From: an uncultured Bacteroidales bacterium
GTDB lineage: Bacteria; Bacteroidota; Bacteroidia; Bacteroidales; UBA932
NCBI GenBank assembly: GCA_944326235.1
Contig: CALVDH010000014.1
Span: 1 to 64,000, forward strand
Direction of reading: 5' to 3'
Length of the DNA: 64,000 bases
This document shows positions 1-12,405 of this stretch, piece by piece. The position numbers and the translations under genes are program-made. Under the pieces are notes generated by a model that saw only the letters and a program-made list of their open reading frames with translations, ran no database searches and was not told the origin of the DNA. Position 1 is the stretch's first letter; every line of letters begins with the position of its first letter.

Positions 1-311
1 AAAGCAGCAATCGTTCAAATACACACCTTCCGAAGGTGATACGAAAACGCGGGGAATCTACTCACCTTCCGAAGGTGGAATGAGGGTCAGGCAAGGGAAA
101 GCAGGGCCACAGACGCTGTAGGGCAATTCAGGCAAATGCACACCTTCGGAAGGTGGGATGAAAACGCGGGGAATCTACTCACCTTCCGAAGGTGGGATGA
201 GGATCAGGCAAGGGAAAGCAGGGCCACAGACGCTGTAGGGCAATCCAGGCAAATGCACACCTTCCGAAGGTGATACGAAAACGCGGGGAATCTACTCACC
301 TTCCGAAGGTG
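1..311. repeat. Palindrome array A: 117-bp tandem repeat carrying six 15-bp palindromes on a 39-bp lattice
   Basis: The near-perfect palindrome CACCTTC-S-GAAGGTG (one central base) occurs at 24-38, 63-77, 141-155, 180-194, 258-272 and 297-311. All starts fall on 24+39k; the slots at 102 and 219 lack a palindrome. The larger unit is a 117-bp tandem repeat (24 to 141 to 258; 63 to 180 to 297). It contains two palindromes with a 24-nt linker, then a 63-nt segment with the conserved piece CCACAGACGCTGTAGGG. The third copy has a central G, the others C. No gene is supported in 1-411; the SEGE-type reading frames hit stop codons between repeats. The remainder (312-411) holds a small duplication and a weak promoter-like box. 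The family is not one I recognise by name. Confidence 0.9.
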
Positions 312-411: not shown

Positions 412-2445
412 ATGAACTGGAGTGAACTGAGCCTGCCCATAACCGATCCCACGTGGATATTCCTGATCGTACTGCTGATCATCCTGTTCGCCCCGCTGCT
501 GTTCAACCGGCTGCGGATACCGAACATCATCGGGATGATCCTGGCCGGCGTGCTCATCGGCGAGCACGGACTCAACCTGCTGGCCCGCGACAGCAGTTTC
601 GAACTTTTCGGCAACGTCGGCCTGTACTACATCATGCTCCTGGCCGGCCTGGACATCAACATGGAGGACTTCAAGCACAACCGCAAGAAGGCCGCCGTTC
701 TGGGCCTGCTCACCTTTTCCATACCGATTATACTCGGGCTCATAGTCAACACGTCCCTGCTCAAGTACAGCCTCGCCACCTCCATCCTTCTGGCCAGCAT
801 GTACGCCTCCTACACCCTGATTTCCTACCCGATAGTCCTCCGCCTCGGAGTCTCCCGCGAGAGGAGCGTGAGCATAGCCGTAGGAGCCACAGCAGTCACC
901 GACACCATGACCCTGCTGGTGCTGGCCGTCATGAGCGGCATATTCGAGGGCGGAACAGGCGAGTCGTTCTGGATAGTGATGGCGTTCAAGGTAATAATGA
1001 TAGGTGCCGTCATCATCTACTCATTCCCGAGAATAGCGCGATGGTTCTTCCGCAAGTACGACGACACCGTCATGCAGTTCATCTTCGTGATGGTACTCCT
1101 CTTCGCAGCAGCCGGGCTGATGGAAGTGGCCGGACTGGAGGGCATCCTCGGAGCCTTCCTCACCGGCATCCTGCTCAACCGCCTGATTCCGTCCATTTCC
1201 CCCCTCAAGAGCCATCTCGAGTTCGTGGGCAACGCCCTCTTCATCCCGTTCTTCCTCATCGGAGTGGGCATGCTCATCAACCTCAACGTGATATTCGGGC
1301 ACTGGGGCGCGATCAAGGTAGCACTGGTCATGACCGCCACCGCCCTGACCGGCAAATGGATTGCCAGCCTCCTGACCCAGAAGGTCTTCCGCATGGCCGC
1401 CACCGAGCGCCGCCTGATGTTCGGCCTCACCACCTCCCAGGCAGCCGCCACCCTCGCAGCAGCCCTCATCGGCTACGAGATCATCCTCCCCGACGGGAGC
1501 CGCCTCCTGAACGAGGACATCCTCAACGGCACCATTCTCCTGATTCTATTCACCTGCATCGTCAGTTCCCTGACCACCGACCGCACCGCCCGCAAGATAG
1601 CCATGGAGGAGCCCGTCATCGACCGCGACCCCGACAGCCGGCCCGAGAAGATTCTCATTCCGCTGGCCAACCCCGACACCGTCAAGGACTTAGTCTGCCT
1701 TTCGATGGCCGTGCGCGACCCCATGCTCAACGACAACCTCTACGCCCTGAGCATCCTCTACGACACCGACAACTCCAAGGCCGTGAGCACCGCCTCCCGC
1801 AACCTCGACAACGCCGCCAGGATAGCCGCCTCCGCCCACGTGGACCTGAAGAAACTCAGCCGCTACGACCTCAACATCGCCTCGGGCATCATCCACACCG
1901 TCAAGGAACAGGAGATCACCAGCCTCCTCATCGGCCTGAGAAGGGACGCCGACAGCCCGATTCTCGGCAACCTGGCCGTCAACCTCCTCAAGAGCCTTTC
2001 CTGCGAAGTACTCCTATCCCGCCTCATGGTCCCCATCAACACCCTGAGCCAGATAGTGGTGGCAGTCCCGCCCAAAGCCGAGTACGAAGCCGGATTCAGC
2101 CGCTGGGTGGAGCACCTCTGCCGCCTGAGTACCTCCCTGGAGCGTCCCCTGCATTTCCACGCCCCCCAGGAGACCATTGTCATACTGCAGAAACTCCTCG
2201 AGGAGAACAGCCACCGCCTGGAAGCCCTCTACGTTCCCATGGAGGACTACAGCGACCTGACCTCCCTCGCCTCCGAACTCGACGACGACAGCCTCCTGGC
2301 CGTAGTCAGCTCCCGCCCCGGCTCCATCTCCCACGACAGCTCCTTTGAGAAGCTGCCCCGCCTCCTCGGCCGCGAGTTCACCTCCTGCAGCCTCATCCTC
2401 CTCTACCCCGAGAAATACGATGACTCCGGCCAGGCCCTCAGTTGA
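412..2445 (+). CDS. Cation:proton antiporter (CPA2 family) with C-terminal universal-stress-like domain
   Basis: Predicted inner-membrane Na+(K+)/H+ exchanger of 677 aa. Residues about 10-395 are a run of hydrophobic helices with the CPA2 look (RIPNIIGMILAGVLIGEHG near residue 35, the AGLDIN segment near 80, GATAVTDTM near 162). Residues about 405-677 are soluble and resemble a universal stress protein tail (EKILIPLANPDTVKDL), as in many Bacteroidota antiporters of this length. The ATG at 412 is the first in frame and starts directly before a hydrophobic helix. The transported ion cannot be told from sequence. The next gene follows after 29 bp, so they may be co-transcribed. Upstream lies the palindrome array. 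Confidence 0.9.
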   Translation: MNWSELSLPITDPTWIFLIVLLIILFAPLLFNRLRIPNIIGMILAGVLIGEHGLNLLARDSSFELFGNVGLYYIMLLAGLDINMEDFKHNRKKAAVLGLLTFSIPIILGLIVNTSLLKYSLATSILLASMYASYTLISYPIVLRLGVSRERSVSIAVGATAVTDTMTLLVLAVMSGIFEGGTGESFWIVMAFKVIMIGAVIIYSFPRIARWFFRKYDDTVMQFIFVMVLLFAAAGLMEVAGLEGILGAFLTGILLNRLIPSISPLKSHLEFVGNALFIPFFLIGVGMLINLNVIFGHWGAIKVALVMTATALTGKWIASLLTQKVFRMAATERRLMFGLTTSQAAATLAAALIGYEIILPDGSRLLNEDILNGTILLILFTCIVSSLTTDRTARKIAMEEPVIDRDPDSRPEKILIPLANPDTVKDLVCLSMAVRDPMLNDNLYALSILYDTDNSKAVSTASRNLDNAARIAASAHVDLKKLSRYDLNIASGIIHTVKEQEITSLLIGLRRDADSPILGNLAVNLLKSLSCEVLLSRLMVPINTLSQIVVAVPPKAEYEAGFSRWVEHLCRLSTSLERPLHFHAPQETIVILQKLLEENSHRLEALYVPMEDYSDLTSLASELDDDSLLAVVSSRPGSISHDSSFEKLPRLLGREFTSCSLILLYPEKYDDSGQALS

Positions 2446-2474
2446 CAGCCCGAGTCCAAAACACATTGTACGAT

Positions 2475-3773
2475 ATGAAATTATCCGGAACATACCATCT
2501 TTCCACCACAGCCGCGGCCGTCCTCATTCTGACCGCCCTTACCCTCATCCCCGCCACCGGCACCGCCCAGACCGTCCTCACCGGCATCGACGTCCTCGAG
2601 GCCAACGGCTTTGAGCAGCTGCAGGGCAAGCGCATCGGGCTGGTGACCAATCCCACGGGCGTGGACCGCTACCTCAACTCCACCATCGACGTCCTGCACA
2701 GCGCCCCGGGAGTGGAGCTGGTCGCCCTCTTCGGCCCTGAGCACGGGGTCCGTGGCAATGCCCACGCCGGCGAGCACGTCGAGGGACAGGCCGTCGACCC
2801 CCGCACCGGCGTTCCCATTTTCTCCCTCTACGGCAAGACCCGCCTCCCCTCCGCGGAGCAGTTCGAGGGCCTCGACGCCATCGTCTACGACATCCAGGAC
2901 ATCGGCTGCCGCTCCTACACCTACATCAGCACCATGGGCAATGTGATGAAGGTGGCGGCAATGGAAGGGGTGGAGATGATCATCCTCGACCGTCCGAACC
3001 CGCTCGGAGGCCTGAAGGTCGAGGGACCGGGAGTGGAGGACTCGCTCATTTCATTTGTAGGACAATACAATATCCCCTACGTCTACGGCCTCACCCCCGG
3101 CGAGCTGGCGACTCTGCTCAACGAGGAGGGGATGCTCAGGGTGGAGGGCTCCGACGGCCGGGACTCTACGGTAAAATGCCGGCTCACGGTCGTGAAGATG
3201 GAAGGATGGAGGCGCGGCATGAACTTCGACGCGACGGGACTGCTCTGGGTGCCCTCCTCCCCCCACATTCCCACGGTGGAGGCGGCATACCTCTACCCGG
3301 CGACCGGCATCCTCGGAGAGCTCGGGGTCCTCTCCATCGGGGTGGGCTACACCCTGCCCTTCGGCATGATCGCCTGTCCGGGGATGGACGCGGACCTGCT
3401 GGCCTCGCGGATGAATGCCCTCTACCTGCCGGGGGTGCTGTTCCGGCCCGTCTACGCCACACCGTTCTACGGCTCGCTCAAGGGAAAGGAGATCGGAGGG
3501 GTGCAGATCTACATCACGGACTTCGGGGCGGCACGGCTCTCGGAGATTCAGTTCTATGCGGTGCAGGTCATTGCGGACATGCAGCCGGACTTCGACCCGT
3601 TCGGGGCTGCAGATGCCTCACGGCTGGAAATGTTCGACAAGGTGACCGGCTCCGAGGAGGTGCGGAAGGCCTTCGGAGAGCGGTACAGATATGAGGACAT
3701 CTTCAATATCTGGAATGATTTTGCAGAAAAATTCCGTAAAGTCTCGGAAAAATATTATCTTTACGCACTATGA
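2475..3773 (+). CDS. namZ: Exo-beta-N-acetylmuramidase NamZ-like (DUF1343, GH171)
   Basis: A 432-aa exported protein of the DUF1343/NamZ family, which removes terminal MurNAc from peptidoglycan fragments. Family landmarks are GKRIGLVTNPTGVDR near residue 43, FGPEHGVRG (probable active-site Glu) near 81, DIQDIGCRSYTYISTMG near 138 and LDRPNPLGG near 170. The start is placed at ATG 2475, which opens a clean signal peptide (MKLSGTYHL, hydrophobic core, ATGTAQ). An in-frame TTG at 2442 would overlap the previous stop but puts 11 extra residues before the signal sequence. The stop overlaps the next start (ATGA). The role in cell-wall recycling or peptidoglycan scavenging follows from the family. 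Confidence 0.88.
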   Translation: MKLSGTYHLSTTAAAVLILTALTLIPATGTAQTVLTGIDVLEANGFEQLQGKRIGLVTNPTGVDRYLNSTIDVLHSAPGVELVALFGPEHGVRGNAHAGEHVEGQAVDPRTGVPIFSLYGKTRLPSAEQFEGLDAIVYDIQDIGCRSYTYISTMGNVMKVAAMEGVEMIILDRPNPLGGLKVEGPGVEDSLISFVGQYNIPYVYGLTPGELATLLNEEGMLRVEGSDGRDSTVKCRLTVVKMEGWRRGMNFDATGLLWVPSSPHIPTVEAAYLYPATGILGELGVLSIGVGYTLPFGMIACPGMDADLLASRMNALYLPGVLFRPVYATPFYGSLKGKEIGGVQIYITDFGAARLSEIQFYAVQVIADMQPDFDPFGAADASRLEMFDKVTGSEEVRKAFGERYRYEDIFNIWNDFAEKFRKVSEKYYLYAL

Positions 3774-6433: not shown

Positions 6434-6489
6434 ACTCCTTCGGAAGGAGTAGGAAAATGGCGGGAAAGCACGACTCCTTCGGAAGGAGT
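6434..6489. repeat. Palindrome array C: two copies with altered arms, 39 bp apart
   Basis: ACTCCTTC-G-GAAGGAGT occurs at 6434-6450 and 6473-6489, exactly 39 bp apart. The core CTTC-S-GAAG matches arrays A and B, but the outer arms are CTC/GAG here instead of CAC/GTG, changed on both sides so the palindrome is kept. The array lies between the convergent terminators of the BACON gene and the Sus-like operon. Confidence 0.85.
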
Positions 6490-6593: not shown

Positions 6594-8543
6594 TTAGAAC
6601 TGGAGGACGAGGGAGGTCATGCCGGGCACGTCTAAGGGCTCGGTGCTGCGGGAGACGGTCGCTCCGGTGAGGATGTCGGTGGCAGTGAAGCTGTCGGTGC
6701 CGAGGGCTGCGGCTGCAGCATCGAATATCTCGGCGTAGTGGGCCCAGTCGAGGGAGATGGACTCGGTGCCGTTGTTGATCACTACCATCACGAAGTCCTT
6801 GAAGTCAGGGGTGTAGCGGAAATATACGTAGGCGTTAACCAGGTCGCCGAAAGGCATGAAGTGCATCAGCTTGCCCTTGGTCACGGCCTCGGAAGTCTTC
6901 CTCCACTGCATCAGGGTGCGGGTGTGGTCGAACATCTCGTTCTGCAGGTCTGTTCTGCCGGCGGAAGTGAAGGCATTGACCTTGTCACCGGGCCAGCCGC
7001 CGGGGAAGTCGGTCCTCCACCAGGCATCGCCCTTGCCCACCATTTCCTCGGGTCCGTGCATCAGAATCTCATCTCCGTAGTACCACTGGGGCACTCCGCG
7101 CATGGTCAGCAGCAGGGTCGTGGCATTCTTCATCCTCGCCAGCACGGTCTCGTCGGAATCCTTGTAGGTACCGAAGCGGATGGCCGGGCGCTCCATGTCA
7201 TGGTTGGTAATGAAGGTCAGCAGGTTGTAGGGGTTGTAGTAGGCAAAGTCGAGGGACACGGAGCCGTAGACGCGCTTGATGCCGTCGTCGTAGCCCAGGT
7301 TCTCATTCTGCACAAATGCCTCGGAGATAGCGTCAGTCAAGGCGAAGTCCATCACCATGGGCAGGTGCGAGGTATAGCCGTCGGCATTGGTCTTAAAGCC
7401 ACCGTCAGCTGTCCTGCAGCCCTCCCAGTAGGCTATCTGCTGGGTGTTGTGGAACCAGCACTCGCCCACGAGGGTAAAGTTGGGGAACTCATTCAGGATA
7501 CCGGCAGTCCAGGCTGAGATGTCCTCCTTGCGGGTGTAAGGATAGGTGTCCACGCGGATACCGTCCAGATCGGCGTACTCTATCCACCACACTGCCAGCT
7601 GGATGTAGTACTGGAGGCAATAGGGATTGCTCAGGTTCATGTCGGGCATCGAGGTATCGAACCAGCCGGTCACGCAGGCGTCGATGTCGGTCTGGGCAGC
7701 GTGGGGATCGGAGTGTCCGGACATGGCGTAGTTGGAGCGGGTAAATGTCGGATGCTGGTGGATCCAGTCCTGGAAAGGCAGGTCGTTGAACCACCAGTGG
7801 GCGGTGCCGCTGTGGTTGGGCACGATGTCCTGGATGAACTTGATGCCCTTCTCATGGGCGGCTGCCACGAGGGAGCGGTAAAGCTCGTTGGAGCCGTAAC
7901 GGGGGTCTATCTGATAATAGTCCGCGCAGGCGTAGCCGTGGTAGGAATAGGTCGGTTCGTTGTCGAGGGTGATGGGCGTAGGCCAGATGGCGGTGATGCC
8001 GAGGTCGGCCAGATAGTCCAGATGGTCCATGATACCCTGGAGGTCACCGCCGTGACGTCCGCCGGGGAGCTTGCGGTTGCCCTTCTCGGCGGTCAGGGGG
8101 GAGGAGTCGTTCTTCTTGTCACCGTTGGCGAAACGGTCGGGCATCAGCAGGTACACCACGTCGGAGGAGCCGAAGCCTACCCTATCCCGTGACCCCTCGC
8201 GACGCTCGCCTATGCTGTAGGCAAATGTCTCGGTCTTCCCGTCGGGGTAGTTGATGGTAAATGTGTACTCGCCCGGAGCCAGGTTATCGGCAATCTCGAG
8301 ATCCACGAACACGTAGTTCGGGCTCTCGGCATAATGCACGGCTTTCACCGTAATCCCGTCAGAGTCCACGGACACACCCGCACCCGAAAGTCCGGGAGCG
8401 TGCAGCATCAGCGTCAGCGGGGTCTCCATCCCGGTCCACCAGCAGGGCGGCTCCACGCGCAGTCCCTCCTGGCCCACAGCTGCGGAAGCCATGGACGACA
8501 GCCCCATCGCAGCTAAAATCGTAGTCAGTAAATTTTTCTTCAT
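6594..8543 (-). CDS. susA: SusA-like GH13 neopullulanase/cyclomaltodextrinase
   Basis: A 649-aa exported alpha-glucan hydrolase. The signal peptide ends near AAVGQ with no lipobox, so the enzyme is probably periplasmic. Residues about 27-112 form the N-terminal Ig-like domain typical of cyclomaltodextrinases (RVEPPCWWTGM). The GH13 barrel follows: DIVPNHSG (about 239), nucleophile D332 in GIRVDTYPY, acid/base E361 in LVGECW and the third acid D449 in FITNHDMERP. Length and architecture match SusA of Bacteroides thetaiotaomicron (about 617 aa), which cuts imported maltooligosaccharides. It is the last gene of the operon, separated from its neighbour by a 239-bp gap holding palindrome array B. 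Confidence 0.92.
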   Translation of the reverse strand: MKKNLLTTILAAMGLSSMASAAVGQEGLRVEPPCWWTGMETPLTLMLHAPGLSGAGVSVDSDGITVKAVHYAESPNYVFVDLEIADNLAPGEYTFTINYPDGKTETFAYSIGERREGSRDRVGFGSSDVVYLLMPDRFANGDKKNDSSPLTAEKGNRKLPGGRHGGDLQGIMDHLDYLADLGITAIWPTPITLDNEPTYSYHGYACADYYQIDPRYGSNELYRSLVAAAHEKGIKFIQDIVPNHSGTAHWWFNDLPFQDWIHQHPTFTRSNYAMSGHSDPHAAQTDIDACVTGWFDTSMPDMNLSNPYCLQYYIQLAVWWIEYADLDGIRVDTYPYTRKEDISAWTAGILNEFPNFTLVGECWFHNTQQIAYWEGCRTADGGFKTNADGYTSHLPMVMDFALTDAISEAFVQNENLGYDDGIKRVYGSVSLDFAYYNPYNLLTFITNHDMERPAIRFGTYKDSDETVLARMKNATTLLLTMRGVPQWYYGDEILMHGPEEMVGKGDAWWRTDFPGGWPGDKVNAFTSAGRTDLQNEMFDHTRTLMQWRKTSEAVTKGKLMHFMPFGDLVNAYVYFRYTPDFKDFVMVVINNGTESISLDWAHYAEIFDAAAAALGTDSFTATDILTGATVSRSTEPLDVPGMTSLVLQF

Positions 8544-8584
8544 AAATTATTGCTATTTGGTTTTATATATCGTTACACTTTATC

Positions 8585-8755
8585 CACCTTCCAAAGGCGG
8601 AATGTTTTCGGTCTCTCTCCGCCCACCTTCCGAAGGTGGGAAAATGCGGAAACCGCTCCACAACGGCTGTAGGGCATTTCCGGTCCTCCAGCGTCCTCTC
8701 CCACCTTCCGAAGGTGGGACGTTTCCGGCCGTTTTCTGCGCACCTTCCGAAGGTG
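8585..8755. repeat. Palindrome array B inside the Sus-like operon
   Basis: CACCTTC-C-GAAGGTG occurs at 8624-8638, 8702-8716 and 8741-8755, with a decayed copy at 8585-8599 (right arm AAAGGCG). Starts lie on the same 39-bp lattice as array A (8585+39k; slot 8663 empty), and the outer perfect copies are again 117 bp apart. The 63-nt gap contains CCACAACGGCTGTAGGGCA, matching CCACAGACGCTGTAGGGCA in array A. The 239-bp gap 8544-8782 contains nothing else I can support. A 67-codon minus-strand frame here with PPSEGG repeats is a by-product of the palindromes. Confidence 0.9.
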
Positions 8756-8782
8756 GGAAAATGCGGAAAACGCAGAGCGGCA

Positions 8783-10111
8783 TCAGAACACGAACTTATA
8801 TCCGTGAGCGGGAAGGGTGTAGCTCTGCCCGGCGATGGAGCCCTCGGAGACGGTCACGGTCACTTCCTCGGCGGAGAAATTGAACACTGCGGCGAATCCG
8901 TCGCTGCCGTCAGAGAGCCTGCGCTCGAAGGCAAACACCTGTTCGGGCCTGTCGCACGCCAGTATCACCATAGGAGCACCCTCGCGGGGAGCATACATCG
9001 ACGGATGGGCATCCCTCATGGCAATCAGCTCCTGGTAGAACTGGGTGAAGCCTCCGCGGTCCTCCCACACGATGGGATCGCGCATGAAGAACTCCAGTGA
9101 GTTGTCGTTGCCCACCTCCTGACCGCTGTAGATCAGAGGCATGCCCGGCTCGGCGAAAGTCAGGGCAGCGAACTGGCGGGCAGCATCCCCCATCCTCTCG
9201 AACTCGGTGCCGTTCCATGAGTTCTCGTCGTGGTTGGAAGTAAAGTTCATCTCGATGCTCTCCACGGGCAACTTACCCTCGTGCTCCACACGGTAGACGG
9301 CGTACTCGGCGGCAGTGGCCTTACCCTGAGCGAGCCTGTTCATAAACGCATGGTTGGACCAGCCGTAGTAGGCGTCGAAGGCGTCGGTCATCAGAGCGGG
9401 CTCCTCGGACTCGGCCAGCATGAACAGGTCGGGACGGATCTCCCGGAGTGCCGCCACGGCGTCATTCCAGAAGTCCACCGGCACCTCGTGGGCCACGTCG
9501 CAGCGGAAGCCGTCGACACCTACCTCGGACACCCAGTAGGTCATGGCGTCGAGCATGGCGGCACGCATATCGGCATTGTCGTAGTTCAGCTCGGCCACAT
9601 CGGTCCAGTCGAAGGGAGCCACCGGAGTACCTGTGCTGTCATCCATCACGTACCACTCGGGATGCTCGGCGATCCAGCCGTGGTCGCGGGAGGTATGGTT
9701 GGCCACCCAGTCGAGTATCACCTTGAAGCCCAGCTCGTGGGCCTTATCCACCACGGACTGGAAGTCCTCGATGTCTCCGAACTCGGGATTGATGGCCTTG
9801 TAGTCGCGGATAGAGTAGTAGCTGCCCAACTCACCCTTGCGCTCCACCTCTCCGATGGGATACACGGGCATGAACCAAAGGATGTCCACCCCGAGTTCCT
9901 TGAGCCGGGGCAGATGCTTTTCGAAGGCCTTGAAGGTGCCCTCCTTGGTGTACTGACGGACATTGACCTCATAGAGGACTGCGGAGGCCGTCCAGTCGGG
10001 ATGGCTCACGTTGCTCACAGGAGACTGCACCTCCTGCCCTGATTTGCCGGCGCATCCTGCAAGCAGAAGCAGGGCTACGGCCGCAAAAACGATTGTCTTA
10101 ATCATCTTCAT
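8783..10111 (-). CDS. GH13 alpha-amylase lipoprotein
   Basis: A 442-aa lipoprotein (lipobox LLAGC, Cys20) made almost entirely of a GH13 catalytic barrel. Key sites are DWVANHTSRDHGW (about 134), nucleophile D205 in GFRCDVAHE, acid/base E234 in LAESEEP and D295 in TSNHDENSW. It is shorter than SusA and SusG and lacks an N-terminal Ig domain or inserted CBM. The WVANHTSRDH context and short size resemble small Bacteroidota periplasmic or surface alpha-amylases acting on maltooligosaccharides. An internal promoter box lies 23 bp upstream, so its level may be set separately from the upstream genes. Confidence 0.9.
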   Translation of the reverse strand: MKMIKTIVFAAVALLLLAGCAGKSGQEVQSPVSNVSHPDWTASAVLYEVNVRQYTKEGTFKAFEKHLPRLKELGVDILWFMPVYPIGEVERKGELGSYYSIRDYKAINPEFGDIEDFQSVVDKAHELGFKVILDWVANHTSRDHGWIAEHPEWYVMDDSTGTPVAPFDWTDVAELNYDNADMRAAMLDAMTYWVSEVGVDGFRCDVAHEVPVDFWNDAVAALREIRPDLFMLAESEEPALMTDAFDAYYGWSNHAFMNRLAQGKATAAEYAVYRVEHEGKLPVESIEMNFTSNHDENSWNGTEFERMGDAARQFAALTFAEPGMPLIYSGQEVGNDNSLEFFMRDPIVWEDRGGFTQFYQELIAMRDAHPSMYAPREGAPMVILACDRPEQVFAFERRLSDGSDGFAAVFNFSAEEVTVTVSEGSIAGQSYTLPAHGYKFVF

Positions 10112-10134
10112 AATACAATGATATTTTAGGAAAA

Positions 10135-10142
10135 CAAAATTA
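10135..10142 (-). promoter_or_regulatory. Internal -7 box (TAATTTTG) before the GH13 lipoprotein gene
   Basis: On the minus strand TAATTTTG matches TAnnTTTG fully, 23 bp before the ATG at 10111. The -33 TTG is not evident. It suggests an extra start for the last two enzymes of the operon. Confidence 0.45.
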
Positions 10143-10173
10143 CTTTCTTCTCACAGTCCCGCTGCTTCGGCTG

Positions 10174-10217
10174 CGCTCCACAACGGCAGCGATTTCCGCG
10201 ATTCGATGCCGTTGCGG
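10174..10217. repeat. Inverted repeat sharing a 14-nt element with palindrome array B
   Basis: CGCTCCACAACGGC (10174-10187) is identical to 8654-8667 inside array B. CCACAACGGCA (10178-10188) pairs with TGCCGTTGCGG (10207-10217) at 10 of 11 positions, giving a hairpin with an 18-nt loop. It lies in the gap between the GH97 and GH13 lipoprotein genes; no 15-bp palindrome is present here. Confidence 0.6.
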
Positions 10218-10269
10218 AAGTCAGTGCAAAGCCATGCGCAAAGCCAGTGGTATGTTCGCGGACGTTCAT

Positions 10270-12405
10270 TTACTTCTCAACGGGCCGGATCACTACTGCC
10301 GCACCGCCGCCCGGCGCTAAGGGGATACGGAGGGTCGCGGAGGGCTTCACCTTCCTGGTATAGATCCGGTAGCTCTGAGGATTGGACTCCCAGTCGGCGT
10401 CCTCTCCGTCGGCGTAGACCGTGGCCTCGTATTTCTGGCCGGAGCCTGAGGGGAGGAACGAGAGAGGGATGACAGCCTCGCGGGCATTCTCGTCGGTGAC
10501 TGCGCCCACGAACCATTCATCGGCACCGCGGGCCTTGCGGGCCACAGTGATGTAGTCCCCGGGCTCGGCCTCGAGATACCAGGAGTCGTCCCAGTTGAGG
10601 GCCACGTCCTTGATGAACTGGAATGCGTCCATAAACCGCTCGTAGTTCTCGGGCAGGTCGCAGGCCATCTGCAGGGGCGAGGGCATGGTCACATAGAGGG
10701 CCAGCTGCCGCGCCAGTGTGGTACCGGCCTGCTCCCCGGGCTTGCTGCCGCCCTCGTAGTAGTCCAGTTTGGTCTGGAAGAGGCCGGGAGTGTAGTCCAT
10801 CGGACCTCCCTTGAGACGGGTGAAGGGCAGGATGCAGGTGTGGTCAGGGTCGTTGCCGCCCATCGACTCGAACTCTCCGCCGCGGGCCGACTCCTGAGCC
10901 ACCCAGTTGGGCCAGGTACGCATCAGTCCGGTCGGACGTACGGCCTCGTGGCTGTCTACCATGATCTCATATTCGGCGGCAGTACGCGCCACGTGGATGT
11001 AGTGGTCGTTCATCCACTGCGAGGAGTGATACTCGCTGCGGGGGATGATGTAGCCCACATATCCGGTCTTGACGGAGTGGTAGCCGTGGTCGACCATGTA
11101 CTGGAAAGCGTCCTCGAGCTGGCGCTCATAGTCTGCCGCGTTGGAGGCCGTCTCGTGGTGCATGATCATGCTGACCCCTTTCGAGCGGGCGTATGAGGAC
11201 ACCTCGTCTATGTCGAAATCGGGATAGGGCTTGGTAAAGAGGAAATGCCTGTCCTTGCGGTATGAGGCCCAGTCCTCCCAGCCTTCGTTCCAGCCCTCGA
11301 CGAGCACCGCGTCGATACCGTGCTCAGCGGCGAAGTCGATATAGCGCTTCACATTCTCGGTATTGGCCGCATGCCGTCCGTTGGGTTCCAGAGCGGAGTA
11401 GTCGGTAACCCCCGGACGGGCCTTCCAATAGTCGCTGTAAGCCCAGGTGGCTCCCGCTCCGGTGAACATCTCCCACCACACGCCCACGAACTTCTGGGGC
11501 TTGATCCACGACACGTCTTCTATAGCGCAGGGCTCATTCAGGTTATATATCAGCTGCGAGGCGAGGATGTCGCGGGCGTCGTCACTTACGATGACCGTCC
11601 TCCAGGGTGAATGGAAGGGAGCCTGCAGGTATCCCCTCACCCCGTTCTTGTCCGGCACCAGATGGGCCTTCAGCCGGAAGCTGACATCATCCACATCCAG
11701 GAGCATGGCGGCATAGTGCACCAGCGCGGCCTCATGGATGTTGATGTACAGCCCGTCATCGGAGCGCAGCATCAGCGGAGTCTGCACGGACAGCCCGCCC
11801 TCGGCCCTGGTCTCGTAGGTCTTCAGGTACAGTCTGCTCTCTATCTCATCCTCCAGACCGGATATCCGGGCAGTGGAATAGGCAAACTCGTTGGAGTCGT
11901 AATCTCCGGGAATGCAGTAGGCCAGATGGTCGCCGGAGAGGTTGAACTCGGTCTGCTCACCGCGCAGGGTCAGATAGTTCAGATGCTCCTGCTCGGGAAC
12001 CTCATAGCGGAAGCCCAGTCCGTCGTCGAAGAGGCGGAAGCGCACGGTCACCACACGGCCGGTCTCCTCCTGCTCCAGAGTCAGGGCCATCTCATGAAAA
12101 TGGTCCCTCACCTCGGCATACTCACCCCACACCGGACTCCAGCTCCTGTCTACGGTATCCCGGCTCACGGCCACTACCGAGAAGCCGCCGGTCAGGTCCG
12201 CCTCGTCGCTCACCAGTCCCAGGCGGCTGGGGGTAATGACGGGCAGTCCCTTGTAGGTCAATTCATAAGTCACCGTCCCTCCGGTGCACCCGACATTGAG
12301 GGACAATTCCCCGGAGGGAGAGCTCATCTGCTGCGCTCCCGCCCCCGAAGGCAGGACGGCCGTCAGGAGGAGAAGGGCAGCGGCAGTTATCAGATTCTTC
12401 TTCAT
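10270..12405 (-). CDS. susB: GH97 alpha-glucosidase, SusB type (inverting)
   Basis: A 711-aa exported enzyme with a cleavable signal (ends near GAGAQ), probably periplasmic. It has the GH97 layout: N-terminal beta-sandwich (to about 290), TIM barrel (about 300-600), C-terminal beta domain. Residues E173 (SNEFAY), E418 (MHHETA), E487 (DSHEAVRPTG) and E511 (ARGGEF) have exactly the spacing of SusB Glu194, 439, 508 and 532, the Ca-binding and catalytic Glu set of the inverting branch. Retaining GH97 members carry an Asp nucleophile instead. The expected role is release of glucose from maltooligosaccharides. The neighbour 12426-13073 starts the same transcription unit upstream. Confidence 0.93.
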   Translation of the reverse strand: MKKNLITAAALLLLTAVLPSGAGAQQMSSPSGELSLNVGCTGGTVTYELTYKGLPVITPSRLGLVSDEADLTGGFSVVAVSRDTVDRSWSPVWGEYAEVRDHFHEMALTLEQEETGRVVTVRFRLFDDGLGFRYEVPEQEHLNYLTLRGEQTEFNLSGDHLAYCIPGDYDSNEFAYSTARISGLEDEIESRLYLKTYETRAEGGLSVQTPLMLRSDDGLYINIHEAALVHYAAMLLDVDDVSFRLKAHLVPDKNGVRGYLQAPFHSPWRTVIVSDDARDILASQLIYNLNEPCAIEDVSWIKPQKFVGVWWEMFTGAGATWAYSDYWKARPGVTDYSALEPNGRHAANTENVKRYIDFAAEHGIDAVLVEGWNEGWEDWASYRKDRHFLFTKPYPDFDIDEVSSYARSKGVSMIMHHETASNAADYERQLEDAFQYMVDHGYHSVKTGYVGYIIPRSEYHSSQWMNDHYIHVARTAAEYEIMVDSHEAVRPTGLMRTWPNWVAQESARGGEFESMGGNDPDHTCILPFTRLKGGPMDYTPGLFQTKLDYYEGGSKPGEQAGTTLARQLALYVTMPSPLQMACDLPENYERFMDAFQFIKDVALNWDDSWYLEAEPGDYITVARKARGADEWFVGAVTDENAREAVIPLSFLPSGSGQKYEATVYADGEDADWESNPQSYRIYTRKVKPSATLRIPLAPGGGAAVVIRPVEK

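Follow-up and report, generated by a model that had tools for sequence, protein, structure and literature searches.

REPs stabilise mRNA, and those of E. coli bind several proteins. In the accessible text of the reports that bear on this, mRNA stabilisation is listed as a hypothesis (PMC3733652) and protein binding is stated in general terms (PMC2817692). The available sections of PMC2817692 and PMC3116915 describe co-evolution of RAYTs with REPs, REP doublets and tandem REPIN clusters beside RAYTs in Proteobacteria. These proteobacterial REP/RAYT systems (REPtrons), as far as the accessible portions of PMC2817692, PMC3686654 and PMC8266576 set them out, resemble the elements reported here in that a HuH–Tyr Y1 transposase gene lies beside its own palindromic repeat, of which there are numerous copies outside genes; RAYT and REP diversify together, copy number tracks RAYT presence, and syntenic RAYTs are found with different REPs (orthogroups). 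The recognition of REPs by TnpAREP is treated in PMC8266576, according to whose available text the E. coli enzyme needs a GT[AG]G foot. A syntenic RAYT with a changed REP class has been termed an ‘orthoswitch’ in PMC3686654, where the molecular mechanism is, in the part available, only speculated about. REP systems of Bacteroidetes are described as ‘atypical’ in the accessible part of PMC6006769. No paper on the repeats described below was found in the literature searched, which covered only a minority of subscription journals and no bioRxiv preprints.

Here we analyse two repeat elements in the starch operon of a 64,000-nucleotide stretch of DNA from an uncultured Bacteroidales bacterium (the window). 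These elements, a palindrome array between two GH13 genes (array B) and a hairpin at position 10174, are very probably REPIN-like copies of two REP-like families, dispersed by RAYT/TnpAREP single-strand-DNA transposases that are coded elsewhere in the genome.

Results

The window carries a minus-strand sus operon in the order MFS, SusC, SusD, SusE, SusG, GH97, GH13 and SusA-like GH13. As the original prediction had stated, array B (8585–8755, minus strand) lies in the 239-bp gap (8544–8782) before the SusA-like gene, which is of the cyclomaltodextrinase type (6594–8543, minus strand); the other GH13 gene (8783–10111, minus strand) is upstream of the array. One degenerate and three exact palindromes start at 8585 (degenerate), 8624, 8702 and 8741, a spacing of 39/78/39, and form two doublets. 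The first (8585–8638) joins the degenerate palindrome at 8585–8599 to an exact one at 8624–8638, the second (8702–8755) joins the palindromes at 8702–8716 and 8741–8755, and a 24-nt spacer separates the arms in each. Between the doublets lies a 63-nt linker (8639–8701), with the conserved core CCACA-N5-TGTAGGGCA at 8658–8676 (minus-strand reading TGCCCTACAGCCGTTGTGG); judged by this linker, the array has the same orientation as the operon. A further array of the same family, array A (24–311, plus strand), stands at the contig end upstream of a Na+/H+ exchanger gene and has six exact palindromes at spacings of 39/78. A doublet of a CTCC...GGAG variant of the family, with the compensated palindrome CTCCTTCGGAAGGAG, lies in the gap where a BACON-domain gene and the SusA gene converge (6435–6488, no strand assigned); this CTCC-type doublet is a third repeat insertion around the starch operon.

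The palindrome of this first family (REP1), CACCTTCSGAAGGTG, matches the window 17 times at up to three mismatches, against 1.69 matches expected and with none of 100 shuffles reaching 17. At up to one mismatch it occurs at 159 places in the 2.47-Mb genome to which the window belongs (G000), many more than the window holds, and the reversed control occurs once; chance is therefore excluded. Exact copies in G000 number 114. The family-1 unit measures 117/118 nt and consists of a 15-nt arm, a 24-nt spacer, a second 15-nt arm and the 63-nt linker, with the arms 39 nt apart. The arms are self-complementary, so that pairing is possible either within an arm or between arms. In the CTCC variant, both arms are altered in step (CTCCTTCSGAAGGAG) at unchanged spacing; G000 has 37 copies of this variant, and G017 has the most, with 50. 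Several contigs of G000 (such as C14, C25, C36 and C46) terminate in these arrays, and the repeats therefore probably break assemblies, which makes the copy numbers minima.

The prediction that conservation in the family extends to a second part outside the palindrome was borne out. An iterative profile, which oriented the linkers and was built from the 57 that are exactly 63 nt long among 108 distinct linkers of 61–65 nt, revealed an ACAG-type core with the consensus gtACAGgCGCTacAGaG that is common to all 57 and sits at one position, approximately 31–46. CCACA-N5-TGTAGGGCA is the form that this core takes in arrays A and B, and its claimed conservation in array A holds, with exact matches at 107 and 224 alongside that at 8658. 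With up to three mismatches allowed, the window contains six matches and 54 of 100 shuffles also reach six, which is no excess over chance; the weight of this element therefore rests on the three exact matches and on its fixed position in the unit. The linker of array B shows a compensated change between genomes, reading CCG..CGG in G000 and CTG..CAG in G007.

The hairpin in the next gap upstream belongs to a second family (REP2). Between the GH13 gene and the GH97 (SusB-like) gene upstream of it (10270–12405, minus strand), a solo element at 10178–10217 (minus strand) reads CCGCAACGGCA-18 nt-TGCCGTTGTGG and forms a 40-nt inverted pair with a 12-bp stem. It is one copy of a family of the form CCRCAACGGCA-16/18 nt-TGCCGTTGTGG with a period of 105 nt, of which G000 has 106 copies and the control none. 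A 14-nt element of array B had been reported to recur in this hairpin. The match is exact (CGCTCCACAACGGC at 8654 and 10174) and the stem is real, but arms, period and adjoining RAYT clade differ, which places the 10174 hairpin in the second family despite the common 14-mer; a single family comprising both elements was thus rejected. The sharing could reflect either chance or a local exchange of sequence between the two adjacent repeats. In both elements, the 14-mer copies (8654–8667 and 10174–10187) lie around GTTGTGGAGC.

As in the REPINs described in the accessible text of PMC3116915, inverted doublets stand at a fixed distance and build tandem clusters of doublet plus flank, also beside RAYTs, and the doublet is able to form one hairpin, in family 2 through its 12-bp stem. 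Unlike in those REPINs, each family-1 arm is itself palindromic, the spacer is 24 nt long, and the 117-nt tandem unit carries an ACAG-type linker core, with as many as 11 CACC palindromes in an array. A difference from the proteobacterial systems, as the available portions of PMC2817692, PMC3686654 and PMC8266576 present them, is the absence of GT[AG]G at the arm foot. By direct reading, neither GTAG nor GTGG is found in any of the 4-nt stretches before the palindromes of arrays A and B on either strand, and GT[AG]G is also absent directly 5′ of the foot of the 10178–10217 hairpin. Target choice must therefore differ from that of E. coli TnpAREP. Instead, CTGTAG occurs within the linkers (48 of 72 distinct family-1 and 21 of 58 distinct family-2 linkers), some 20–40 nt from the arms, and is possibly a displaced GTAG guide. 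A canonical GTAG guide in the linker as a general rule was dropped, as CTGTAG is absent from all four linkers of the AGGTGCCG family.

The family-1 palindrome is present in 13 of the 19 genus genomes, with 0–114 exact copies per genome. Arm pairs were found in 13 of 199 genomes searched across the taxonomic family, and all 13 belong to the window genome's own genus, one of 25 genera. Nearly all of the 77 named stretches in GTDB contigs come from Candidatus Coprenecus or uncultured Bacteroidales; the former is assigned to the Rikenellaceae (Bacteroidales), and we infer that it is the genus of the window genome. The record L134, whose title names Candidatus Cryptobacteroides merdigallinarum, also has a family-1 doublet. 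Within genomes, 40% and 23% of array bases fall inside called ORFs (the calls are crude and some ORFs cross arrays) versus 88–89% of all bases. Counting only clusters of more than one palindrome with both flanking ORFs within 800 nt, arrays occupy 7 convergent, 3 divergent and 5 tandem gaps in stretches of the window's own genome (n=15), and 13 convergent, 18 divergent and 22 tandem gaps at named loci (n=53).

The GH13 gene was found in 14 of the 19 genus genomes. In seven of these, the GH13–SusA gap is 160–249 nt long and holds 1–4 exact family-1 palindromes; in five relatives, whose GH13 is 84–91% identical, it measures 4–26 nt and has no array, and in two more distant relatives it measures 0 nt. 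The number of palindromes differs among relatives with 95–98% identical GH13. Family-2 elements occupy the GH97–GH13 gap of G000 (one), G007 (three), G003 (one) and G017 (one). The same gap is 21–23 nt long with no family-2 element in G008, G002 and G001, and GH97 adjoins GH13 with no element in G011; GH97 was not found in the examined stretch of the other six GH13-bearing genomes. Because several relatives have no such elements in the corresponding gaps of the operon, the elements are insertions, and the patterns in the two gaps indicate that gain and loss of the two families were independent and that unit number varies. Within the operon, the insertion boundaries are too indistinct for a target site or exact ends to be read.

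Six Y1_Tnp matches were found in G000. For the six full proteins (285–318 aa), the best match is the NCBIfam REP-associated tyrosine transposase (E 4e-12 to 3e-5), with scores of 24–46 bits that are all under the curated cut-off of 80; with Pfam, one of the six full-length proteins scores above the curated cut-off of 23 bits. The AlphaFold model of P0001, the RAYT that is flanked by arrays, has a mean pLDDT of 88.3, and its best Foldseek match is 4ER8 (TnpAREP bound to a REP hairpin; E 2.1e-6). VIA-align also placed 4ER8 best (Z 14.2, 150 residues aligned, 2.8 Å), followed by the IS608 transposase at 9.2, with Thg1-type chains at a Z of about 7 and further rows lower, near the stated background of the method. 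A phmmer search of P0001 against PDB sequences returned nothing, and a profile search against the same sequences returned only 4er8 (E 0.0034) and one unrelated chain (E 0.18). No variation was seen at the HuH and Tyr residues H51, H53 and Y108 among the 40 RAYTs aligned (40 of 85 ORFs). On this model, the array-flanked protein is a predicted Y1 HuH transposase of the TnpAREP fold. Residues ~160–312 of P0001 are mostly predicted with confidence, helical and outside most fold matches, which are concentrated in the N-terminal part, and could form a possible specificity or partner domain.

RAYT relatives occur in 17 of the 19 genus genomes. From the 85 ORFs extracted, 81 entered the tree, with start codons set by rule and four ORFs below 220 aa left out. 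These RAYTs are 278–335 aa long, with a long C-terminal extension, HuH–Y distances of mostly 51–57 and a Tyr motif of the YVLRNP type, and none of the 40 aligned has a W in the guide-contact region; the missing W, the length and the extension set them apart from the proteobacterial RAYTs of PMC2817692, PMC3686654 and PMC8266576, as these appear in the accessible text. TnpAREP subclass 2.6, according to the available part of PMC6006769, is likewise found in Bacteroidetes, has atypical flanking structures without GT[AG]G and with copies elsewhere in the genome, and has an NHVH-type HuH motif in many members; the motif NH[LIV]H is present in many of the RAYTs here. In that same text, the subclass has a median length of 179 aa, WQ and YIH[QN]NP motifs and a median HuH–Y distance of 82, and a comparison by these published motifs shows that the RAYTs of the genus differ in W, Tyr motif, distance and length. 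A separate clade, L212 (G000:C19, gene at 1716–2654, minus strand) and 10 clade mates, is found in 11 of the 19 genus genomes on very short branches. An inverted arm pair within 450 nt of the gene was not found in 9 of the 11, and the clade has the appearance of a RAYT that was domesticated and is inherited vertically.

The RAYT of family 1 lies at a syntenic locus beside cutC (CutC identity is 94–96% across the five further loci that were compared). In G000, G013 and G008, the first CACC palindrome starts at base 36 after the RAYT stop (35 nt away), in G007 CTCC palindromes run from base 33, and G002 retains one degenerate palindrome after the RAYT; on the 3′ side, the repeat thus adjoins four of the five full-length genes of the clade, the fifth being that of G002. 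On the 5′ side, the nearest array lies beyond cutC, another feature unlike the REP/RAYT systems in the available portions of PMC2817692, PMC3686654 and PMC8266576. The cutC gene also adjoins a RAYT remnant in G017, as read from the sequence. The remnant is of the CTCC type, and G017 has eight CACC copies. All six genomes with the family-1 RAYT clade contain at least 47 exact palindromes (G000 114, G002 98, G008 98, G001 69, G007 60 and G013 47), and an intact copy occurs in none of the 13 genomes with at most 18 (0–18). The RAYT of G001 was counted from a contig-end fragment that is identical over 38 of 38 aa. The co-occurrence is significant (Fisher 3.7e-5, or 5e-4 minus the G001 fragment), with values that are uncorrected for, and confounded by, genome relatedness.

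Other clades adjoin arms of other sequence. The AGAGTGTAC family is present in all four genomes with its RAYT clade (2–5 copies) and in one of the 15 others (one copy), and at least five copies of the AGGTGCCG family are found in the four genomes with an intact RAYT of its clade and in G017. Family 2 stands on both sides of a sister RAYT clade; this cognate RAYT was found in four of the nine genomes with at least 13 copies, and in none of the other five, which include G000 (106 copies); contig breaks or loss may be the cause in these five. Pairing of all six Y1 proteins of G000 with CACC arrays was rejected, since only one has arrays adjacent. With two families that extend genome-wide, each apparently matched to its own transposase, the operon repeats look mobile and not like a purpose-built switch.

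The RAYT gene of G007 is a mosaic. Compared with G000, 243 of 258 nt are identical in codons 1–86 (94%) versus 366 of 660 thereafter (about 54–55%), and at fourfold sites the identities are 28 of 34 and 13 of 43, respectively. The best breakpoint is at nt 272, in-frame at codon ~90, with a log-likelihood gain of 83. The other three clade members compared are 92–96% identical to G000 throughout, and in its upstream DNA and CutC, G007 is about as similar to G000 as other relatives are. The replaced part is closest to the G017 remnant (84% over 147 aa). Local palindromes go with the 3′ part of the RAYT allele: 41 of 42 are CACC at the five loci with a G000-type RAYT, the odd one being a hybrid, and nine of nine are CTCC at the two loci with the other type. 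Many copies of the CTCC variant occur in genomes that lack an intact RAYT of the CTCC type. G000 holds its 37 CTCC copies with no CTCC-type RAYT and G007 still holds 60 CACC copies, both of which would be explained by old copies left behind.

Discussion

In the mechanism that we propose, the family-1 RAYT would recognise the hairpin arms when they are single-stranded during replication or transcription, and its HuH–Tyr centre would cut and rejoin the unit, thereby putting doublets into intergenic gaps. Arrays would then lengthen or shorten as units of ~117 nt (family 1) or ~105 nt (family 2) are gained or lost in tandem. The starch operon copies are insertions into gaps that measure 4–26 bp in relatives without the array. 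Observed here are the copy number and unit anatomy of the repeats, the predicted fold of the RAYT and its catalytic residues, its adjacency to and co-occurrence with the repeats, element-free sites and a joint switch of RAYT and palindromes at one locus; that the RAYT moves the repeats, via a single-strand intermediate, and that they have no primary regulatory role is what we infer.

The position of array B inside a tandem operon, at the same place in seven genomes, could instead reflect evolved mRNA stem-loops whose role would be to protect the operon mRNA or to process it, and to set the enzyme ratio, and the insertion does separate genes that are only 4–26 nt apart in relatives. The predicted ability to form stem-loops as RNA is supported computationally, the array B transcript folding with a z of −5.0 relative to shuffles, none of which (0 of 200) folded equally well. 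We nevertheless consider this explanation unlikely, because the same elements also occur in divergent and convergent gaps, relatives lack them in the GH13–SusA gap, palindrome number varies at 95–98% GH13 identity, and linker orientation in tandem gaps is the same as transcription in nine cases and opposite in three (p 0.15). The occurrence in all gap types, the absence from relatives and the variable unit number are equally at odds with the original view of the elements as part of operon regulation, and a special link to the starch operon is contradicted by the genome-wide scatter of both families. An mRNA-stability role of the inserted array B is possible and is not needed to explain the elements; as the array is in place among seven relatives, selection could hold it.

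Palindromic duplex DNA at fixed spacing would also suit binding sites for a chromosomal protein (a nucleoid protein, gyrase or a factor of replication or repair), sites that could have spread passively or under selection. This is improbable for repeats that are restricted to one genus at 0–114 exact copies per genome, co-vary with one transposase allele and differ in arm sequence with the RAYT clade, which is the pattern of a transposase-dependent repeat and not of a conserved cellular site. GC-rich intergenic hairpins might likewise be read as Rho-independent terminators or attenuators, which is highly improbable here: no intrinsic terminator was found in the GH13–SusA gap, the sole match in 8300–10500 is intragenic and on the plus strand (9895), and the terminator-like count for that region is below the shuffle mean of 1.7. 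The chance that the regular repeats and spacers represent a CRISPR-like array or other adaptive repeat is negligible, given linkers that are mutually homologous with a conserved core, repeats that are dispersed singly and in short arrays, and a search of 8300–10500 in which no Rfam family reached its gathering score (the single match, E 0.58, was far below).

Dispersal of REPIN-like copies by RAYTs accounts for the two puzzling operon features as mobile-repeat insertions. Whether these Bacteroidales RAYTs also form a new subclass, in which hairpin specificity lies after codon ~90 and an in-frame swap changes the repeat family in one step, with the adjoining array switching too, is in our judgement evenly balanced. 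The G007 locus resembles the REP ‘orthoswitch’, as described in the accessible text of PMC3686654, in that a syntenic RAYT has a different REP class in a relative and the old class persists in the genome, and it differs in the mosaic structure of the allele, whose breakpoint falls in-frame at codon ~90, and in the accompanying change of the adjoining palindromes. The recombinant RAYT suggests a mechanism for this published orthoswitch.

Conclusion

Several natural RAYT–repeat pairs are found within one Bacteroidales genus, and relatives with and without array B offer a natural experiment on the effect of an insertion in the sus operon. The recombinant RAYT makes the mechanism of a specificity switch directly testable; if the reading of it given above is true, the swap at codon ~90 would supply the molecular mechanism that the RAYT/REP orthoswitch has lacked.
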